From Bacillota bacterium (GTDB lineage Bacteria > Bacillota_B > Desulfitobacteriia > Desulfitobacteriales > Desulfitobacteriaceae): a stretch of 8,714 bases of DNA. Positions within the stretch are counted from its first letter, which is position 1; each line of letters starts with the position of its first letter. Both the position numbers and the translations under genes were made by a program. The stretch spans positions 1 to 8,714 of the forward strand of contig JAJYAS010000106.1 in the NCBI GenBank assembly GCA_021779415.1, written 5' to 3'. Of the stretch, positions 880 to 8,714 are shown one piece after another. The notes under the pieces were generated by a model. The model ran no database searches and had not been told where the DNA came from. It was given only the letters and a program-made list of their open reading frames with translations.

Positions 880-2598
880 TTAGATCCTAAAAGTGCTAAC
901 TCCAGTTTGTAAGTTCTGGGCCAAGTCAGTCAGACTTTGACAAGATAAGTTAATCTGATCGATAGACGCTGTGAATTCTTCAATGGCTGCGGAAACGGTG
1001 GTTGCCTGGTCGGCAGTAACCAGGCTGACAGCACCAATGTGTTGAATTCCTGAAACGATTTGTTGACTTCCGCCTGCCATTTGCTGTATGGAAGAGGCAA
1101 TCCCTCCTACTTGTTCAGAAACTTCAATCACCATATTCAATATATCAGATAGGCCAAGACCGGCGGTGTTTACCACCTTAATTCCATCGTTAACGTGAAC
1201 TTCTTCAGCATCAATAGCAACGATAACACGATTGATGTTATTCCTGTTTACAACCACTAAAGCAGTGATTTGTCCTGTCGCTACTTTGGCCTTTTCAGCC
1301 AACTTGCGAACCTCTTCAGCCACTACAGAGAAGCCACGCCCCTGCTCGCCAGCACGGGCAGCCTCGATAGCGGCGTTTAAAGCCAGAAGATTGGTTTGCT
1401 CTGTAATACCAGTTATTAAGCTAGCGATATCCGCTATCTGATCAGAGCCCTCAGCCAATAAGGTGATAGTTTCTTTAACAACTCGATTACCCCTGCTGAT
1501 GTTGTCCATTTGCTTAATAGCCTGAGTAAGAGCCCTTTGCCCATTTTCAGTAGTCGTAGTTGTTTTTAAGGTGAGGGTAGTGACGCGCTGGCCTGCCTCC
1601 GCTACCATTTGAATGTTAATGTTCATTTGTTCCATAGCCGCAACGGTCTCGTTAACTGCACAGGCTTGTTTTTCCGTTCCACCAGCCACCTCGGCTATGG
1701 AAAGTGCTATTTGGCCAGAGGCACTTGAACTTTGTTCCGTAATATTTAAAAGCTGGTGAGCTGAAGTAGCAACGTCCGTCGATGACGCAGAGACTTGTTT
1801 GACCAAGCCTGACAGACTATTCGTCATAAGATTAAAGGCCTCTGCAAGTTGTCCAACTTCGTCCTTGGAGGTCGTTTTTAACTTGGTCACCCTAAGATTT
1901 CCTGAGGCAAGCTCTCGAACGTTTGTTAGCATTATTTGTAGAGGTTTGGCGATGGCACGGGCCACCAGAGCTCCAATGATAAATGCCAGAACAGCGACGG
2001 CCAGCGGGAAACCTAATAGCATTTTCATCGTTTGTGCAGAATTAAGATTTTCGCGCAAAATGCTACTTTTTGCTTTCTGAGTGCTAAACTCTACGAGTTC
2101 GGCGAGCATAGTTTGAATATCGTCTAAGTCTTTGGTAGCGTTATTAGAAAAGTAGATATAGGCTCCTTCTTTGTCCCCGCTATCCATTAGCGAAACTACC
2201 TTTTGCCATTCGTCGCTGTATTTTTGCAATGAGTCCCTCACATTCGCCAGTTTGTTAACTTCAAAGGGCTCTTTAGCAAGGGGGGTATAGTTGTCCAGTG
2301 ATACGGTGGTTAAGCCTTTTAGTACTGTAGTCTGAATGAGTAAGTTTTGCTTCTTGGAAGCGTCAAGAGGGGCTAAGATAAGTTCTACGTTTACACTACG
2401 CATCATACGCATATTGGCATTGGCATCATTAATAAATTTTACTGAAATCAAAGCATTTGAATAGGTATCATTTATGGCTACTTTGGATTGATTATAAAAA
2501 TAATACCCCATAAAACTTAAACCGAGCATGAATAATACCATGACAAGGACTAAAGCATTAATTTTGTAGAACGTTTTCCAGTTGTAAAACCATTTCAT
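880..2598 (-). CDS. Methyl-accepting chemotaxis protein with four-helix-bundle-type sensor and HAMP
   Basis: This 572-residue transmembrane chemoreceptor would sense an outside signal and control CheA kinase. Order of parts: short basic N-terminus, TM1 (about 13-35), an extracytoplasmic helical sensor (about 36-190, 4HB_MCP type in character), TM2 (about 192-216), HAMP (about 217-268), and the coiled-coil signalling domain to the end. The CheA/CheW-contacting hairpin tip is canonical: [20 protein letters not shown] at about 400-419, followed by [19 protein letters not shown]. There is no C-terminal CheR-docking pentapeptide. The stretch after the tip ([15 protein letters not shown]) departs somewhat from the usual heptad pattern but has no break. 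The start has a strong GGAGGAG (2613-2607), 8 nt upstream, inside the last codons of the preceding c-di-GMP gene. Only 5 bp separate the two genes, so translational coupling is likely. The ligand is unknown. Confidence 0.95.
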
Positions 2599-2603
2599 TT
2601 ACA

Positions 2604-4772
2604 TTACTCCTCCAATCGTATTAAAAAAGAGTTTCCTCCCAATGCTTTAACTTCTTTCTTGATTTGGGCAGCTCGTTCAGAAACGAGTATAGGCGTCCAA
2701 TTTCGGTCCGTGGTGTTTATGCTCAGGCCGGCTAGGGCCACGCTAAGGTTTTCTGTACCAGGTAACTGATCGCAAGATTGTTCAAATTGGGCGACGATGT
2801 TGACTGCTAACTTTTCCAAGTCCGAGGGGGAAGAAATTATAATAAAATCGTCGCCACCTATGTGTCCAACAAAGGTTTTTCCGGCGGTTTTAAATGACTC
2901 ATTTAGCAAAACCTCACTTAACATTTTGATAGCAACATCTCCTCGTTGAAAACCGTATAAGTCGTTATAATATTTGAATTTGTTAAGGTCAACATATAAT
3001 AGGCCAAAGGTCAAACCGCGTTCTAAATGTTGTCGAATCTCCTGGTCAATGCGTAGGTTGCCTGGCAACCCAGTCAGCGGGTTAGCTCCTTGGGCAAGCT
3101 GAATCTGCCTTTCGGATATAGCTTTAATAAGATTTGCCACGGAAACCATGCCGACCGGCTTGCGTTGGTTAGCCACAATAATGCTGTCATACAGCTGGGC
3201 ATCCGAGCGTTGCATAGCTAAACTAGACACCACTTCTAAAGGAGTGGTGTCTTCCACTATGAGTGGATTTGAGTCCATTATAACGGAAACACTTTTCTCT
3301 AAAAAAAGAGAGACCCCATAGCGGGTACCTAGCGCGGCAAAAAGTCTGCCGCGCTGCATTACACCAACAATACGTGAGTTTTCGGTTATCCCCACCAGCC
3401 ATTGGTTTGGGTGCTCACGGAAGTAAGTTTCGATGGAACTGACAAGGGCGTTGGTATCGAACAAGGGTATGGGCTCTAACATGGAAAGAACAGGGCATTG
3501 ATCTATAGATTTAAGCCGACGCACCGGATCAAGGATCTCCATAACGGCTGGATTAATGCTTTCTCGTTCAAAAGTGGGTCTTGCAACAAAGAAGCCCTGT
3601 ACGTAGTCCACTCCCAATTGGACCACAGTACGCATTTCTTCTGCCGTTTCCACTCCTTCTGCGATGATACGGCACCCTATACGCTTAGAAAAGGTGACAA
3701 AGGTCTCCAGCAAGGCCCATTTTATAGGATCAGTATTCACTCCCTGAATTAAAGATCGGTCAATTTTAAGAAAGTCAGGATGTAGCTCCGCTACGGACTG
3801 TAACGAGGAGTAGCCTGCTCCAACGTCATCCAAAGCAATTAGGTAACCCTGATTACGATAATGATCTAGAGCATCACGGAACGTGGAGAAATCCTCGATT
3901 GCACTTCGTTCGGTAATTTCCAGGACAACATCCGTTGGGGCTAACCCTTTCTCACTAAGTAATTTTCTTGTATGACCAGAGGCAAACTCGGGGTCGATTA
4001 GGACTTGAGGGTTAATGTTGAGGAAGAGCATTTCTTTGTTTTGGACAACATTAGGGTAGGAATTAATAGCTTGGCGCCGACAATGTGTTTCGATCGGATA
4101 GAGCTGACCTATTTTTTCAGCAAAGGGGAAGAGTTCAGCAATATTGTTAAAACAAGAGGAGCCTGGTATACGGGCCAACGCTTCAAACCCAAACACCTCT
4201 CCACTTCGTGTTTCAATAATTGGTTGAAAAGCGGCTTTCAAGTACTTGTCGGGCTTTTCGATCAGATGGGTAATCTCTTCACGGCGCGCAAAAAAATTGG
4301 GATCTGGTTCGGATTTGTTAAGAAGAAAGGCCTCTTTCACTGCCGCATACAGTAAATAATCGGCACTTCGGCCGACTTCGTTGATACACTGGGCGAGTCC
4401 GGAACGAAGGCATATTTTCTCGTTAACTAGCTTTCTAATTCTGCGGTTAAACCTTTCTTCCATAGGGCGAACCCATTGTTCGATGACTTCGGTGATGTCC
4501 CAATGTATGGTTTCTCCCGGAACAAAATAAACAACAAAGTCATCCCCACCTCTGCATTCTATATGAGAGAACAAATAGAGGCTGCGTTGCTGTTTAAGTG
4601 TAAGATTAAGTTCATTTTCAATTTCAGCCAGAATTTGGTTGCAGATTTTGTACCCATAACGAAATTCCACCTCCTGAAATTTAATGATATCAAGATATAA
4701 CACCCAGATTGTTTTCTTGTCCCTAAGTAGACGGTATAGCTTTTGTTGGCTCATATCTACCGACTTAAACAT
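2604..4772 (-). CDS. GGDEF-EAL-CBS-GGDEF cyclic-di-GMP turnover protein
   Basis: The protein has 722 residues from the ATG at 4772, chosen because AAGGAG (4785-4780) lies 7 nt upstream; the in-frame ATG at 4799 has no such site. Domains: a divergent GGDEF (about 15-165) with RGGDDF at 74-79; a full EAL phosphodiesterase (about 178-400) with EALAR at 197-201, the NIN motif, ITE (E288), DDVGAGYSS at 315-323, KID (K336), EGVET (from E372) and QGFFVARP; a CBS pair (about 430-555); and a second GGDEF (about 565-721) opening with LTGLPGN and carrying GGDDF at 639-643. All EAL catalytic positions I can place are kept, so c-di-GMP hydrolysis is likely. Both cyclase motifs have Asp for the usual Glu, and neither has an upstream RxxD inhibitory site, so cyclase activity is uncertain. 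CBS pairs usually bind adenine nucleotides. No membrane segment is evident. It is the first gene of an operon with the chemoreceptor, behind a Pho-box-like promoter. Confidence 0.93.
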   Translation of the reverse strand: MFKSVDMSQQKLYRLLRDKKTIWVLYLDIIKFQEVEFRYGYKICNQILAEIENELNLTLKQQRSLYLFSHIECRGGDDFVVYFVPGETIHWDITEVIEQWVRPMEERFNRRIRKLVNEKICLRSGLAQCINEVGRSADYLLYAAVKEAFLLNKSEPDPNFFARREEITHLIEKPDKYLKAAFQPIIETRSGEVFGFEALARIPGSSCFNNIAELFPFAEKIGQLYPIETHCRRQAINSYPNVVQNKEMLFLNINPQVLIDPEFASGHTRKLLSEKGLAPTDVVLEITERSAIEDFSTFRDALDHYRNQGYLIALDDVGAGYSSLQSVAELHPDFLKIDRSLIQGVNTDPIKWALLETFVTFSKRIGCRIIAEGVETAEEMRTVVQLGVDYVQGFFVARPTFERESINPAVMEILDPVRRLKSIDQCPVLSMLEPIPLFDTNALVSSIETYFREHPNQWLVGITENSRIVGVMQRGRLFAALGTRYGVSLFLEKSVSVIMDSNPLIVEDTTPLEVVSSLAMQRSDAQLYDSIIVANQRKPVGMVSVANLIKAISERQIQLAQGANPLTGLPGNLRIDQEIRQHLERGLTFGLLYVDLNKFKYYNDLYGFQRGDVAIKMLSEVLLNESFKTAGKTFVGHIGGDDFIIISSPSDLEKLAVNIVAQFEQSCDQLPGTENLSVALAGLSINTTDRNWTPILVSERAAQIKKEVKALGGNSFLIRLEE
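2607..2613 (-). promoter_or_regulatory. Chemoreceptor ribosome binding site embedded in the end of the upstream gene
   Basis: GGAGGAG encodes part of the final Leu-Glu-Glu of the c-di-GMP protein and lies directly against its TAA stop (2606-2604), 8 nt before the chemoreceptor ATG. The arrangement suggests that ribosomes ending on the first gene help initiate the second. Confidence 0.8.
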
Positions 4773-4779
4773 TTGAAAA

Positions 4780-4785
4780 CTCCTT
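4780..4785 (-). promoter_or_regulatory. Ribosome binding site that fixes the c-di-GMP gene start
   Basis: AAGGAG on the minus strand lies 7 nt before the ATG at 4772. It lies inside the longer reading frame that starts at 4799, which argues that the first nine codons of that frame are leader and not protein. Confidence 0.8.
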
Positions 4786-4843
4786 CTTTGACCCAGCATC
4801 GTGCCTAATTTGAGTCTGCTACAATGTGTAATATCCTTACTAC

Positions 4844-4897
4844 ATAATAGTATCTAATTGTAAAAATCTATTTAAGTGAATGTAAATTTATTGTTAA
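4844..4897 (-). promoter_or_regulatory. Pho-box-like promoter of the c-di-GMP/chemoreceptor operon
   Basis: On the minus strand four hexamers start exactly 11 bp apart: TTAACA (4897-4892), TTTACA (4886-4881), TTAAAT (4875-4870) and TTTACA (4864-4859). A -10 box TATTAT (4849-4844) follows after 9 nt. No TTGACA-type -35 is present at the proper distance, as expected for an activator-dependent promoter. Predicted transcription start is near 4837, giving a leader of about 65 nt. The geometry is the same as at the response-regulator and pstS promoters in this window. The repeat matches the known PhoP/PhoB-type binding site in form; binding itself is inferred. Confidence 0.75.
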
Positions 4898-4945: not shown

Positions 4946-4991
4946 TTGCTGTTTCAGTAATAACAATATTTGTTAATTACTGAAACAGCAA
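4946..4991. repeat. 46-bp near-perfect palindrome between two divergent promoters
   Basis: Arms TTGCTGTTTCAGTAA (4946-4960) and TTACTGAAACAGCAA (4977-4991) are perfect 15-bp inverted repeats. Inside them TAACAA (4961-4966) pairs with TTGTTA (4970-4975), leaving a 3-nt loop and one bulged A, so about 21 bp can pair. No T-run follows on either strand, which argues against a terminator. By the predicted start sites (about 4837 leftward, about 5082 rightward) it lies in DNA transcribed by neither operon, so it is more likely a DNA-level site such as a dimeric operator, or a small mobile-repeat relic, than an RNA hairpin. Confidence 0.85.
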
Positions 4992-5010: not shown

Positions 5011-5075
5011 TTTAACAGAACTTAGTTGTTTCTTAACCTGAGAATAATACTTCCTTTACAGTCATGCGATAAAAT
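5011..5075 (+). promoter_or_regulatory. Pho-box-like promoter of the phospholipase-glycosyltransferase operon
   Basis: Hexamers at 11-bp steps are TTTAAC (5011), TTAGTT (5022), TTAACC (5033), ATAATA (5044, weak) and TTTACA (5055-5060). After exactly 9 nt comes the -10 box TAAAAT (5070-5075). The last hexamer and its distance to the -10 are the same as at the three other promoters here, but the inner repeats are weaker, so this is the least certain of the four. The predicted transcription start near 5082 puts the upstream in-frame TTG (5026) outside the message. Confidence 0.6.
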
Positions 5076-5088
5076 TGTCTTAAAACAC

Positions 5089-5098
5089 AGGAAAGGTG
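5089..5098 (+). promoter_or_regulatory. Ribosome binding site of the phospholipase C-family gene
   Basis: AGGAAAGGTG is the only good Shine-Dalgarno match near the gene start. It allows TTG at 5104 (5 nt after it) or ATG at 5110 (11 nt after it), and rules against the far-upstream TTG at 5026. Confidence 0.65.
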
Positions 5099-5109
5099 TT
5101 GACTTGGAC

Positions 5110-5823
5110 ATGTATGAGAGGATTATTGGTCAGACTCTTGGGCGGATGACAAAGTTGCTTCTTGCTTCAGCGGGACCCTTGCAATATTTTCTCGACACAC
5201 CAGGCGTAACCCATGTTCATTGTCTGGAACAGGCCTATATTACTTTAAAGCAGGATGGAAAAGAGGATGTAGTCAGATTATTCAAGGCACATCACTCGAC
5301 ACTGACAAAAGGTTTATACTGGGCTGACCGCGGTTGGAAAAACGTCAATCATTTTTATAGTCATCCCGATAAGCAAGGACTCATTAGCTGGCCGGGTGCA
5401 ACAGCCGAGTGTCAATATTATTTCAACAAGGCTTTTACTTTTTTCCCAAAGAACGTCGATAAAGGAATGTTCTTTTTGGGCGCAGCGCTACACCTAGTAC
5501 AAGACATGTGTGTTCCACACCATTCCTTAGGGATTCTTTTCGACGGTCACAAAGAGTTTGAAACATGGGCAACCAATAACTGGGGCAAGTTTCCTGCAAT
5601 ATGTGGTATGTATTTGCCGTTTTTACATCCAGCCCAATGGATTGAGCATAATGCTAGCGTTTCCGGTCCGCTATATTCCTTGGTATCTCAGGTGGAGGGA
5701 TGTTCTGTAGAGAGCTATCATAAGGCATCAGAAATATTGATCCCGCTGACAATTGCCACTTCAGCGGGTTTTTTGAATTTTGCCCGAAACCAATTAGACA
5801 GTTTAACCTTACGTCTCGCGTAA
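5110..5823 (+). CDS. Zinc-dependent phospholipase C-family protein (PF00882 type), apparently cytoplasmic
   Basis: From the ATG at 5110 (TTG at 5104 is an alternative) the protein has 237 residues. The zinc-ligand pattern of Bacillus/Clostridium phospholipase C is visible: THVHCLEQA (His 35 and 37), D73 in ADRGW, NHFY (His 81), HLVQD (H128-x3-D132), PHH (His 137/138, six after D132 as in the B. cereus enzyme) and HKEFE (H147-x3-E151). The family hydrolyses phospholipids to diacylglycerol and a phosphorylated headgroup. Unlike the secreted toxins, I see no signal peptide and no mature N-terminal Trp, which normally supplies a zinc ligand; the N-terminus (MYERIIGQTLGRMTKLLLA) is only mildly hydrophobic. 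The next gene, 37 nt on, is a diacylglycerol glycosyltransferase, and the shared promoter looks phosphate-controlled, which supports a role in membrane lipid turnover. Family is well supported; substrate and location are inferred. Confidence 0.82.
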   Translation: MYERIIGQTLGRMTKLLLASAGPLQYFLDTPGVTHVHCLEQAYITLKQDGKEDVVRLFKAHHSTLTKGLYWADRGWKNVNHFYSHPDKQGLISWPGATAECQYYFNKAFTFFPKNVDKGMFFLGAALHLVQDMCVPHHSLGILFDGHKEFETWATNNWGKFPAICGMYLPFLHPAQWIEHNASVSGPLYSLVSQVEGCSVESYHKASEILIPLTIATSAGFLNFARNQLDSLTLRLA

Positions 5824-5860
5824 ACAATCAGAATGAGGAAATTGAGAGGGAGGGCTAGAG

Positions 5861-7009
5861 TTGAAAAAATTAAGGATTCTTGTGTTTTCTGCAGCGTTTG
5901 GAAATGGACATTTTCGTGCGGCAGAAGCTGTTATCGAAGGCATACGTATTGAGGAGCCTTTTGCAGAAATTACTCATTTGGATTTTGGAGATTTTTTAAG
6001 TAAGCGTTTAAATACCATGGTAAAAAACTTATACATGGAGATGATTAAACATACCCCGAGGCTTTGGGGACGATTTTATGATAAAACAGCTAGGCTACAA
6101 CCTAAGTCGATGATGCAACGTTTTCTGAATCACATAGGGCGCAGTGATTTTCTTAAATACATTCAGGCATTTGAACCAGATCTCATCGTCTGTACTTATC
6201 CTACAGTTTCTTCGATTCTAGCCCAACTCAGGCAGGAACGTATTCTTAATGTTCCGGTAGTTACTGTAATCACTGATTATACTGTTCACAGTCTTTGGGT
6301 CCATCCAGGTGTTGATCGTTACATGGTGGCTTGTAAGGAAGTAAAGAAAAGTTTAGTGTCCTGGGGAATTGAACCACAACGTGTTTATGTGACGGGGATC
6401 CCAGTCAGTCCGAAATTCGAACGAGAAATGGATCGAGGGCACATTGTTTCCAAATTAGGTTTAAAGCCAGAGCTACCCACCTTTTTAGTGATGGGAGGTG
6501 TGTATGAGATCGAAATTGTGAAGAGAATCTGCAAGCAACTCGCAGATTCTCTCATTCCAGTTCAAGCTATTATTGTCTGTGGAAAGAATGAAAAGCTATA
6601 TAACTCGTTAGTAGAAGTAAAAGTCCAGGCTCGTAACCTCATCGTGCGGTTGGGGTATGTTCATAATGTTGAGGAATTAATGGAGGTTTCCGATCTGATT
6701 ATAACTAAGGCGGGTGGATTAACGGTTTCCGAGGCTTTAACAAAGCACTTGCCACTTGTAATCTTCAAGCCGATCCCCGGGCAAGAAGTTGAAAATGCAC
6801 AGTTTGTGCAACGCGTAGGCGCAGGGCAGGTTGCAGGGAGTGAAGAGGAATTGGAACAACTTCTAAAGCGCTGCTTAAGCTATCCCGAGAATATAGAAAG
6901 AATGCAGGAAAAAGCAGCGGTCGCTTTACCAGGCCCCTCCACAGAACAGGTTGTGGAGGCTTTGCTGCAATTAGTGTCGGATTTGAGAATGAAGCAGAAA
7001 ACTGGATAA
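5861..7009 (+). CDS. Diacylglycerol glycosyltransferase, UgtP/MGDG-synthase type (GT28)
   Basis: The protein has 382 residues, close to B. subtilis UgtP. TTG start at 5861 with GAGAGGGAGGG (5844-5854) 6 nt upstream. The N-terminal MGDG-synthase-type acceptor domain (about 1-180) has GNGHFRAAEAV at 14-24, with H17 equivalent to the conserved His of the family, and TDYTVHSLWVHPGVDRYMVA at about 138-157. The C-terminal nucleotide-sugar domain (about 200-370) has MGG (211-213), KAGGLTVSEAL (283-293) and PIPGQEVENA (304-313), all hallmarks of this family and the related MurG fold. Such enzymes sit on the inner face of the membrane and transfer glucose or galactose from UDP-sugar to diacylglycerol, giving glycolipids and lipoteichoic-acid anchors. 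Sugar type and processivity cannot be read from the sequence. As second gene after a phospholipase C that would supply diacylglycerol, its substrate fits the operon. No clear terminator follows. Confidence 0.9.
   Translation: MKKLRILVFSAAFGNGHFRAAEAVIEGIRIEEPFAEITHLDFGDFLSKRLNTMVKNLYMEMIKHTPRLWGRFYDKTARLQPKSMMQRFLNHIGRSDFLKYIQAFEPDLIVCTYPTVSSILAQLRQERILNVPVVTVITDYTVHSLWVHPGVDRYMVACKEVKKSLVSWGIEPQRVYVTGIPVSPKFEREMDRGHIVSKLGLKPELPTFLVMGGVYEIEIVKRICKQLADSLIPVQAIIVCGKNEKLYNSLVEVKVQARNLIVRLGYVHNVEELMEVSDLIITKAGGLTVSEALTKHLPLVIFKPIPGQEVENAQFVQRVGAGQVAGSEEELEQLLKRCLSYPENIERMQEKAAVALPGPSTEQVVEALLQLVSDLRMKQKTG
6522..6552 (+). repeat. Perfect 11-bp inverted repeat inside the glycosyltransferase gene
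   Basis: AGAGAATCTGC (6522-6532) and GCAGATTCTCT (6542-6552) are exact inverse complements with a 9-nt loop. The region encodes an ordinary helix (KRICKQLADS) of the C-terminal domain, so the hairpin may be coincidental. It would be stable in the mRNA, and no T-run follows. Confidence 0.7.
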
Positions 7010-7062
7010 TCAGCGACATAGCGTTGTTTCCGGAACCTGTTCAAAAGGGAAATGGTCAAAAA

Positions 7063-7227
7063 ATGATTGAATTTGCCCTAGGATATGGGCTATGCTTTGG
7101 TCAAAACATAACGGGAGGATCGAATTTTCATGGTTTCTATAGAGAGAAGCCAGTTGATTTGGGATGTCATGAACTGGATGAAGAATGTATTGGCGAGCTG
7201 TTATCCAGAAAAAAGAGGATGTCTTGA
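7063..7227 (+). CDS. Doubtful small ORF, 54 residues, no recognised family
   Basis: The frame runs from ATG 7063 to TGA 7225-7227, with an in-frame TTG further up at 7024. The protein begins MIEFALGYGLCFGQNITGG and ends with basic residues (LLSRKKRMS). It has three cysteines and two histidines but no motif I recognise, no signal peptide and no membrane segment. The nearest Shine-Dalgarno-like bases (AGGGA, 7046-7050) are 12 nt from the ATG, which is poor, and nothing suitable precedes the TTG. It follows the glycosyltransferase by 53 nt on the same strand and could ride on that message, or be a decayed coding remnant. Treat it as tentative. Confidence 0.25.
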   Translation: MIEFALGYGLCFGQNITGGSNFHGFYREKPVDLGCHELDEECIGELLSRKKRMS

Positions 7228-7244
7228 TTGATCAGTCATAATAT

Positions 7245-7298
7245 ATAACAATAAATTTACATTCCGTTCATACAGACTTTACAAACAACAATTATGAT
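7245..7298 (+). promoter_or_regulatory. Pho-box-like promoter of the response regulator (autoregulation likely)
   Basis: Four hexamers start 11 bp apart: ATAACA (7245), TTTACA (7256), TTCATA (7267) and TTTACA (7278-7283). The -10 box TATGAT (7293-7298) follows after 9 nt. The sequence is close to the pstS promoter even between hexamers (both have TTTACATT and then GTTCAT and AGACTTTACA in the same register), so the same regulator very probably reads both. The obvious candidate is the PhoB-like protein encoded just downstream. Confidence 0.8.
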
Positions 7299-7330: not shown

Positions 7331-7366
7331 AAGGGAGGGCCTTTATTGGGAGGAGTTATGGTGTGA
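7331..7366 (+). promoter_or_regulatory. Double ribosome binding site with possible overlapping leader micro-ORF
   Basis: Two Shine-Dalgarno sequences stand in tandem: AAGGGAGGG (7331-7339) and GGGAGGAG (7348-7355). The second serves the GTG start at 7363 with 7 nt spacing. The first lies 6 nt before TTG 7346, which opens a six-codon frame ending in TGA 7364-7366, so stop and GTG start overlap as GTGA. This could couple or tune translation of the regulator, but it may be chance in a purine-rich stretch. Confidence 0.35.
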
Positions 7367-8055
7367 CCAAAATTATACTCGTAGCGAACGAGGTCCAAAT
7401 TCAAGAATTAGTCCGGGTTAACTTAGAAAGAGATGGGCATAATGTAATAATCGGATTAAACGGCGAACAAGGGTTAGAACTTGCTAGGAGAGATAAACCA
7501 GACATTATTATTATTGATCTAACGCTTCCACTTATTGATGGATTTGAGGTTATCAAAACACTGCGTAACCAGAAGGATACCCATGATGTTCCAATAATAA
7601 TTCTAAGTGACAGCGATGATGTCATGGACAAAATAATCGGACTTGAGCTCGGTGCCGACGACTACTTATCTAAACCTTTTAGTCCCAGAGAATTATCTGC
7701 CAGGATTAAGGCTAGACTTAGAGAGATTCAACGTAAAATTGAGATGGTAGATAGCCCTCTGAGATGGGGAGGATTGGAAATTGAGAAAGAAAGCTATACT
7801 GTTACCCTGGATGAACAGCTTTTAAATCTAACTGTGAAGGAATTTGAATTGCTCGTTCTCTTTGTATCAAATCCTTACCAAGTATTCAGTCGGGAATATC
7901 TCATTCAAAAGGTCTGGGGTAACCTTTCCAACTCAGGTACCAGAGCACTTGATGTTCATATCAGTCATTTGCGCAATAAATTGAAATCGTTAGGACCTGT
8001 ACTCGACTCGGTACGTGGAGTTGGCTACACTTTTACACACCGAGAAAAATACTGA
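7363..8055 (+). CDS. OmpR/PhoB-family response regulator with atypical receiver
   Basis: 230 residues from GTG 7363. The receiver domain (1-120) keeps the phospho-acceptor D52 in IIIIDLTLPLIDG, S82 in the Thr/Ser switch position, GADDYL (98-102) and K104 in SKPF. At the place of the acidic Mg2+-binding pair (usually VDDE) it reads VANE, so A8 and N9 replace both aspartates. The C-terminal winged helix (about 132-226) is intact: LTVKEFELL, the recognition region with TRALDVHISHLRNKL (193-207), and VRGVGYTF. Such proteins bind tandem direct repeats upstream of target genes. The gene has repeats of exactly that kind before it and lies just before pstS, so a PhoB/PhoP role in phosphate starvation is the natural reading. 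No sensor kinase gene follows; the next gene is pstS. Without the acidic pair, phosphorylation by a kinase may be impaired or unnecessary. Confidence 0.9.
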   Translation: MTKIILVANEVQIQELVRVNLERDGHNVIIGLNGEQGLELARRDKPDIIIIDLTLPLIDGFEVIKTLRNQKDTHDVPIIILSDSDDVMDKIIGLELGADDYLSKPFSPRELSARIKARLREIQRKIEMVDSPLRWGGLEIEKESYTVTLDEQLLNLTVKEFELLVLFVSNPYQVFSREYLIQKVWGNLSNSGTRALDVHISHLRNKLKSLGPVLDSVRGVGYTFTHREKY

Positions 8056-8058
8056 GAT

Positions 8059-8112
8059 TTAACTTAAACTTTACATTGAGTTCATTAAGACTTTACAATC
8101 TTACAGTATAAT
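8059..8112 (+). promoter_or_regulatory. Pho-box-like promoter of pstS
   Basis: Hexamers at 11-bp steps are TTAACT (8059), TTTACA (8070), TTCATT (8081) and TTTACA (8092-8097). A perfect -10, TATAAT (8107-8112), follows after 9 nt. The site starts 3 bp after the response-regulator stop codon, so pstS has its own promoter even though read-through from the regulator is possible (no terminator is seen between them). pstS is a hallmark Pho-regulon gene, which anchors the reading of the shared repeat. Confidence 0.85.
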
Positions 8113-8162
8113 CATTTTATGTTAAGGAATTGGCACATAGGAAATTTAAGGAGGAAACAAAA

Positions 8163-8714
8163 TTGTTTAAAGCGAAATCGAAGATTGCTCTTGTAAGTAC
8201 TACTTTATTGGCTCTCTTGGTCCTAGTAGGATGTGGTCAAACAGCTGCACCAACTCCTACACCAACGACACCGACCTCAAACGCTACAACTATTGACAAG
8301 AAAACGATTTCTTCTGCAGGTTCAACAGCACTTCAACCACTCGTTAAATTAGCTGCGGATGAGTTTATGACTAAAAATGCTGGTGTACAGGTAAACTTAA
8401 GCGGTGGAGGTTCGTTTACGGGTTTGAACAATGTAGCTAGCGGTTCTGTAGATATCGGAAACTCAGATGTGCTTGTTACGAATGAACTAAAAGACAAAGG
8501 ATTAGTTGATCACCAAGTCGCTGTAGCGCCTTTCCTCATCATTACTAATAAAGATGTTAATGTTGACAACTTGACCAAAGCTCAACTCACGGATATCTTT
8601 ACTGGGAAAATTACAAACTGGAAAGATGTTGGTGGTAAGGACGTCCCGATATCCATTATCGGACGCGCAAAATCATCCGGATCCCGTGCAACGATCAGTA
8701 CGATTATAATGGAT
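8163..8714 (+). CDS. pstS: PstS-type phosphate ABC transporter substrate-binding lipoprotein (3' truncated)
   Basis: TTG start at 8163 with AAGGAGG (8148-8154) 8 nt upstream; 184 codons are visible and the frame is open at the window edge. The N-terminus is a lipoprotein signal: basic KAKSK, hydrophobic core, and lipobox LVGC with the modified Cys at 24, followed by a Pro/Thr-rich linker (about 30-43). The mature part starts like PstS with ISSAGSTALQPLV, then SGGGSFTGL, IGNSDV, FTGKITNWKDVGG and GRAKSSGSRAT, the loops that cage phosphate in this family. The protein captures phosphate outside the membrane for the PstCAB permease, whose genes would be expected just past the window. Its Pho-box promoter and its place behind a PhoB-like regulator agree with this role. 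Confidence 0.93.
   Translation, partial: MFKAKSKIALVSTTLLALLVLVGCGQTAAPTPTPTTPTSNATTIDKKTISSAGSTALQPLVKLAADEFMTKNAGVQVNLSGGGSFTGLNNVASGSVDIGNSDVLVTNELKDKGLVDHQVAVAPFLIITNKDVNVDNLTKAQLTDIFTGKITNWKDVGGKDVPISIIGRAKSSGSRATISTIIMD

Follow-up and report, generated by a model that had tools for sequence, protein, structure and literature searches.

The DNA analysed here, an 8,714-nucleotide stretch of a Desulfitobacteriaceae assembly (contig JAJYAS010000106.1; hereafter the window), carries adjacent genes for a zinc-dependent phospholipase C (PLC) and a diacylglycerol glycosyltransferase (GT). Judged from sequence and setting, the two genes quite likely form an operon for lipid remodelling under phosphate starvation. 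The closest genome record found is that of Desulfosporosinus sp. I2 (L001), with a PLC 97% and a GT 95% identical over the part compared. The operon and its promoter are laid out as follows:

5033..5060, + strand: Pho-type box of the PLC–GT operon, three hexamers 11 bp apart (repeat scan and position weight matrix, PWM)
5070..5075, + strand: probable −10 element TAAAAT, 9 nt past the PLC box, a spacing common to the other promoters
5110..5823, + strand: zinc-dependent PLC, PF00882, 237 amino acids; start at ATG 5110 or TTG 5104
5861..7009, + strand: UgtP/MGDG-synthase-type diacylglycerol GT, PF06925 and PF04101 (profile and structure matches)

Both genes lie on the same strand, and no terminator-like site is listed in the 37-bp gap between them, which agrees with the single operon described in the initial annotation. 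That annotation began at 5011, slightly upstream of the box as placed here.

The PF00882 assignment, likewise made initially, holds at 31.5 bits vs a gathering cut-off of 26.8 bits. In the profile scan PF00882 was the sole match of the PLC at E 0.1, which does not group it with PlcP, a proteobacterial phospholipase C that we take to be a metallophosphoesterase. The protein has the features of the PC-PLC fold. Its zinc-ligand positions, H35, D73, H81, H128, D132, H138, H147 and E151, which we take to be the eight side-chain ligands in PC-PLC order, are invariant in a 23-row alignment and kept in 126 of 127 rows. Identity to Bacillus cereus PC-PLC-type PF00882 phospholipases C is approximately 18%.

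Secreted PC-PLC of the Bacillus type carries a signal peptide and, in the mature protein, an N-terminal tryptophan zinc ligand. Neither trait is apparent in the window PLC. No signal-peptide-like stretch was found in it (maximum 12-mer hydropathy 1.17; no dedicated signal-peptide predictor was run), and hydropathy exceeds 2.5 in just 2 of the 127 PLC rows. The place of the tryptophan is occupied by an internal P-L-Q segment, with Q25 near there in 113/127 rows and tryptophan in 7/127. A subfamily signature of W-A-D (71–73), Q-D-x-C (131–134) and W (153) is invariant in the 127 rows bar two changes at A72. An N-terminal membrane-binding amphipathic helix was considered and is unsupported (moment 0.45, shuffle p 0.083).

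The second product had been described as a UgtP/MGDG-type enzyme, and its matches confirm this: PF06925 scored 128.2 bits and PF04101 45.4 bits, and the best solved-structure match was a processive diacylglycerol β-glucosyltransferase (9wde, 188 bits). Plant MGD1 (4wyi) scored 119 bits. PF06925 genes were present in 14/14 genomes searched, at one to five per genome. As the nine of these genomes with a PLC-linked GT each carry two to five of them, the linked GT there is one of several paralogues.

Conservation and origins of the gene pair

The PLC subfamily occurs in 33/45 genomes of the Desulfosporosinus family (that of G001), in 9/10 genomes of the Pelosinus order and 53/250 of the Pelosinus class, and in 60/113 genomes of the Desulforamulus class. 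We take the wider groups of G001, G011 and G013 to be Desulfitobacteriia, Negativicutes (the Pelosinus class) and Desulfotomaculia (the Desulforamulus class), respectively. The loci fetched were the best-scoring ones: 30 of 47 match rows for the G001 family, 39 of 60 for the Pelosinus class, with the Pelosinus order loci counted among the 39, and 30 of 92 for the Desulforamulus class.

Among these best-scoring loci, a GT no more than 200 bp from the PLC and in the same orientation was found in 20/30 of the G001 family, 35/39 of the Negativicutes and 0/30 of the Desulfotomaculia. A separate but partly overlapping set of 67 loci had a linked GT in 27. Within the 24 closest Desulfosporosinus loci the GT is linked in 20; L012, L016, L022 and L023 lack it. 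The order is PLC–GT in Desulfosporosinus and GT–PLC in Negativicutes. The initial annotation named a lack of conservation in relatives as a refuting outcome, and this did not materialise: the majority of the Desulfosporosinus loci studied keep the pair, and it reappears with reversed order in Negativicutes. The association is lineage-specific and does not extend to the Desulfotomaculia loci.

A GT tree of 66 rows comprised 13 linked Desulfosporosinus GTs, including that of the window, 26 linked Negativicutes GTs, 26 unlinked paralogues and one other; some linked GTs and one short paralogue were left out. The 13 Desulfosporosinus linked GTs form one clade (98/92), which together with nine Desulfosporosinus paralogues makes up a larger clade of 22 rows (100/96). 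A separate clade unites 25/26 Negativicutes linked GTs and one paralogue (98/95), and L098 branches in a third position. Forcing 38 linked GTs into a single clade cost 217 log units (p-AU 1.8e-7), in a test that omitted L098 and thereby favoured one clade. The tree lacks a known root, and long branches or an odd composition affect some of its rows. Independent recruitment of the GT is the simplest reading of the tree, and the suggestion in the initial annotation of an independently assembled Firmicute version gains backing from the two separate clades. Such recruitment of a GT beside the PLC is strong evidence that both proteins work together.

The PLC-adjacent GTs of L098 and L049 fall in a third branch of PF06925; the GT of L049 lies downstream, convergent and on the opposite strand. 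A second PLC–GT copy in D. lacus (L018, 6001–11701) is followed by genes for a 154-amino-acid protein, UDP-galactopyranose mutase, a GT2 enzyme and an LPG_synthase_TM-like protein. A shared 154-amino-acid third gene in L018 and L043 was rejected, as no similarity between the two products was found (E 0.40).

Pho-type promoters and the phosphate neighbourhood

Besides the PLC box, three further Pho-type boxes were found in the window by repeat scan and PWM, among the following genes:

Inside the window: end portion of an M20 peptidase gene
880..2598, − strand: chemotaxis receptor (named by eye)
2604..4799, − strand: GGDEF-EAL-CBS-GGDEF protein, for cyclic-di-GMP turnover (domain scan; repeated PLC neighbour)
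4859..4886, − strand: Pho-type box of the divergent GGDEF/EAL gene; −10 at 9 nt
7024..7227, + strand: 67-amino-acid open reading frame (ORF), apparent phnI (C-P lyase) relic in its first part (similarity to L003)
7256..7283, + strand: Pho-type box of the regulator gene; −10 at 9 nt
7363..8055, + strand: PhoB/OmpR-type response regulator (profile matches)
8070..8097, + strand: Pho-type box of pstS; −10 TATAAT at 9 nt
8130..8714, + strand: PstS phosphate-binding protein, leaving the window; start possibly TTG 8163

The PhoB-like regulator and pstS named in the initial annotation are thus in place, with both matches below NCBIfam cut-offs: the regulator scored best to TIGR02154 PhoB (192 bits, cut-off 296), and PstS scored 145 bits to TIGR02136.

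Three hexamers 11 bp apart constitute the box common to Desulfosporosinus pstS promoters and several regulator promoters. A generic TTWACA scan of the window gave 21/24 for the regulator, 20/24 for pstS and 18/24 for the PLC (p 0.028), and 22/24 for the four-hexamer form before the EAL gene. A PWM built from 15 pstS and regulator boxes, picked by register, gave 28.7 bits for pstS, 25.7 for the regulator, 18.6 for the EAL gene (− strand) and 6.6 for the PLC (p 0.03), with five control stretches at −13.0 to −2.5. The Pho-like box placed before the operon by the initial annotation is present, and the same site recurs in relatives, but it is weak in the window alone. Between the PLC and the divergent GGDEF/EAL gene, the strongest box is that of the GGDEF/EAL gene and not that of the PLC, which corrects the earlier account.

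With the PWM, nine relatives gave 0.8–14.3 bits for their PLC promoters, and 8/9 reached p ≤0.04, although these rows are related and not independent. In 10/20 Desulfosporosinus loci scanned, the PLC box ranks first among the forward sites, 49–51 bp before the start. The box of the EAL gene was found by PWM in 4/5 relatives, and the fifth, L015, has the site by repeat scan. Furthermore, the best −10 match lies exactly 9 nt past the third hexamer in all four window promoters, and the same spacing was found in 13/13 relatives' PLC promoters tested, which are 13 of the 20 scanned loci. Between the divergent promoters lies a near-perfect inverted repeat (4946–4991, fold z −6.9); as a conserved part it was rejected, since among 14 relatives scanned L001 alone has it.

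A period scan of non-redundant promoters (three hexamers, score ≥16/18) found a period of 11 in 7/17 PLC–GT and 16/30 GT–PLC promoters, vs at most 1 and 0, respectively, for nine other periods. Period 11 was found in 8/63 PLC-only promoters vs 23/47 GT-linked ones (Fisher p 4e-5). A −10 element at 9 nt was not seen in the Negativicutes promoters. Among 19 non-redundant Negativicutes promoters with a box of ≥15, an extended −10 lies exactly 20 nt (9+11) past the third repeat in 16, vs ≤5/19 for each other spacing of 3–35; the 20-nt spacing came post hoc from a wider scan.

In Anaerospora (L043), the same box precedes GT–PLC (4718) and the permease gene that comes next after pstS (8316), and it also lies at the pstS start region (7288), where it overlaps the first possible pstS start codon. 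The −10 element matches at 5/6 positions for GT–PLC and at 6/6 for each of the other two. L167 has a box before pstS too (4938, − strand). The presence of these boxes at pstS and permease genes ties the box to phosphate. The 11-bp direct repeats known from pst promoters are found before the operon, weakly so for the window PLC promoter taken alone.

Downstream of the operon in D. lacus (L014) come genes for a regulator, PstS, two permeases and an ATPase. L043 and L167 each have a PhoR-like kinase gene divergent from GT–PLC, with PstS downstream. D. fructosivorans (L003) has genes for a GntR regulator and PhnG, PhnH, PhnI and PhnJ downstream of the GT. Given these phn genes and the resemblance of its first 30 residues to PhnI (70% identity over 30 amino acids to L003 10295–11455, beside PhnG, PhnH and PhnJ), the ORF at 7024–7227 appears to be what is left of a C-P lyase operon.

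A GGDEF/EAL gene lies within 600 bp of the PLC in 18/30 G001-family, 10/39 Negativicutes and 0/30 Desulfotomaculia loci. It is divergent in Desulfosporosinus, and downstream on the same strand in the 10 Negativicutes and in GT-less Paradesulfitobacterium-type loci. The GGDEF-EAL-CBS-GGDEF gene, with the top Pho-type box of the region between it and the PLC, is a repeated PLC neighbour in two classes, and the same phosphate response may extend to cyclic-di-GMP control.

Predicted lipid remodelling and alternative explanations

The analysis shows which genes are present, that the PLC keeps its zinc-ligand positions and has no export-signal-like stretch, that the pairing recurs in two classes differing in gene order and GT clade, and that the promoters are built like those of pst genes. 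In this sulfate-reducing bacterium plc-gt is probably switched on at phosphate shortage. The gene identification in the initial annotation is right, and the function it proposed is probably right. From the promoter anatomy, a phosphorylated PhoB/PhoP-type regulator would bind the 11-bp repeats at low phosphate, and plc-gt would be transcribed. Family, fold and zinc-site positions suggest that the cytosolic zinc PLC would cut inner-leaflet phosphatidylglycerol or phosphatidylethanolamine into diacylglycerol and a phospho-headgroup, the phosphate of which would be reused. The GT, as expected of the UgtP type, would transfer sugar from a UDP-sugar onto the diacylglycerol, giving a phosphorus-free glycolipid and keeping the membrane intact. 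As a distant class seemingly assembled the same pair separately, the idea is credible and easy to test.

Several findings weigh against lipid remodelling. The window PLC box is weak on its own, the PLC box is not the top site in the other 10/20 Desulfosporosinus loci, and about half of the GT-linked promoters fall under the box threshold. Among Pelosinus-type GT–PLC loci, 10/11 lack a clear forward box (15–16/24, p 0.27–0.64), L103 being the exception (p 0.02). Extra Desulfosporosinus copies also differ: L028 is boxless, and L018 and L019 have TTTAGA repeats of period 11 (18/24) with no pst alongside. The GT is non-adjacent in 10/30 Desulfosporosinus-family loci, and in L095 and L096 its place after the PLC is taken by GGDEF/EAL. 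At 283 bits, the GT is under the 500-bit NCBIfam equivalog cut-off for UgtP / diglucosyl diacylglycerol synthase, and the PLC lacks the N-terminal tryptophan ligand of the secreted enzymes. The predicted activity, regulation and lipid change are inferred from genomic evidence.

The Desulfotomaculia loci count on the same side. Their PLC stands without GT (0/30) and without box (0/29), which rules out the PLC as a universal phosphate gene and implies another role for it there; upstream neighbours in seven Desulfotomaculia or similar loci are mixed, namely phosphoenolpyruvate carboxykinase, malate dehydrogenase, pyruvate carboxylase (twice), POR, TatC and PHP. L053, from a Desulfotomaculum metagenome-assembled genome outside the 29 scanned, is an exception that is also counted here, as its PLC has no GT and yet has a period-11 site of 18/18 upstream of 5959.

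The GT could instead, like Bacillus UgtP, supply the glycolipid to which lipoteichoic acid or a different envelope glycan is anchored, with the PLC recycling phospholipid or spent anchor, such that the wall is adjusted and phospholipids are not replaced. The UgtP-like nature of the GT is in keeping with this, as is the glycan- or glycolipid-building look of the genes downstream of the extra L018 copy. It is nevertheless unlikely, as the pair is present in 35/39 fetched loci of Negativicutes, diderms that are not known to have lipoteichoic acid (no lipoteichoic acid synthase search was made), anchors could come from further PF06925 paralogues that these genomes carry, and the promoters are of the Pho type with pst neighbours. 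We consider it very unlikely that the PLC acts on something other than membrane phospholipid, such as a nucleotide, a cyclic dinucleotide or another phosphodiester, perhaps tied to the GGDEF/EAL neighbour. The least credence is given to a PLC that scavenges phosphate from exogenous phospholipid beside a merely co-regulated GT. Secreted Bacillus PC-PLC is phosphate-regulated and shares its family and fold with this PLC, and the phosphate context, phn relic included, would suit scavenging; however, the absence of a signal-peptide-like stretch by hydropathy (no dedicated signal-peptide predictor was run) and the arrival of a GT beside the PLC at least twice both argue against it.

Beyond the window, a broader proposal is held tentatively, as not quite an even call. 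Firmicutes may have converged on phosphate-sparing remodelling at least two times (Desulfitobacteriia and Negativicutes, possibly a third in L098), each time by placing a local UgtP-type paralogue beside the same cytosolic PF00882 PLC with a rebuilt third zinc site, under Pho-type promoters and often with a cyclic-di-GMP enzyme, so that membrane composition and lifestyle would switch together when phosphate is scarce.

Relation to known systems

In Proteobacteria, the PlcP gene often shares an operon with a glycosyltransferase gene and has a Pho box, according to the main text of PMC4796936, in which the words Firmicutes, Gram-positive and Clostridi are absent. The predicted system resembles the PlcP–Agt pair of marine and soil Proteobacteria as described there, with a diacylglycerol-making PLC, an adjacent glycosyltransferase leading to a phosphorus-free glycolipid and an upstream Pho box, although the window by itself gives this box little strength (p 0.03). 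Unlike PlcP–Agt, the PLC is of PF00882 (PC-PLC/S1 fold), the GT is a PF06925/PF04101 UgtP-type enzyme and not Agt, the host is a Firmicute and a cyclic-di-GMP gene is often alongside. The PLC shares the fold and eight zinc-ligand positions with B. cereus PC-PLC and other PF00882 phospholipases, and differs from the B. cereus enzyme in its low identity, its P-L-Q segment, its lack of a signal-peptide-like stretch and its GT partner. Similarly, the GT has the two-domain PF06925 and PF04101 build of UgtP, processive diacylglycerol glucosyltransferase and plant MGD1, but unlike UgtP it is a PLC-linked paralogue below equivalog cut-offs.

Another sulfate reducer, Desulfovibrio alaskensis G20, replaces >90% of its phospholipid with MGDG, GADG and ornithine lipid at low phosphate, as the main text of PMC5193443 reports; it differs in being a Proteobacterium with an Agt homologue, and the word phospholipase is absent from that text. 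No paper on a PF00882–UgtP pair was among the literature matches listed, in a search whose coverage mostly excludes subscription literature. The remodelling logic is thus known, and the enzymes, lineages and repeated assembly look new.

Proteobacteria, algae and plants are known to remodel their lipids when phosphate is scarce, and for anaerobic Firmicutes from soils, aquifers and sediments the present locus offers a specific gene pair with which this can be tested. If the prediction is true, evolution arrived at the same pair of steps through unrelated enzymes, the phosphorus-free glycolipids of anoxic environments would be accounted for in part, and a phospholipase family known mostly as secreted enzymes would acquire a cell-internal physiological role. 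Acididesulfobacillus (L024), a relative with this PLC and no linked GT, makes hexose–hexosamine glycolipids, as passages of PMC8982180 report. At L168 (5402–11322), genes for an EAL/GGDEF protein, a GT, a PLC and a CYTH-CHAD protein lie in a row on one strand, CHAD being a polyphosphate-binding domain.
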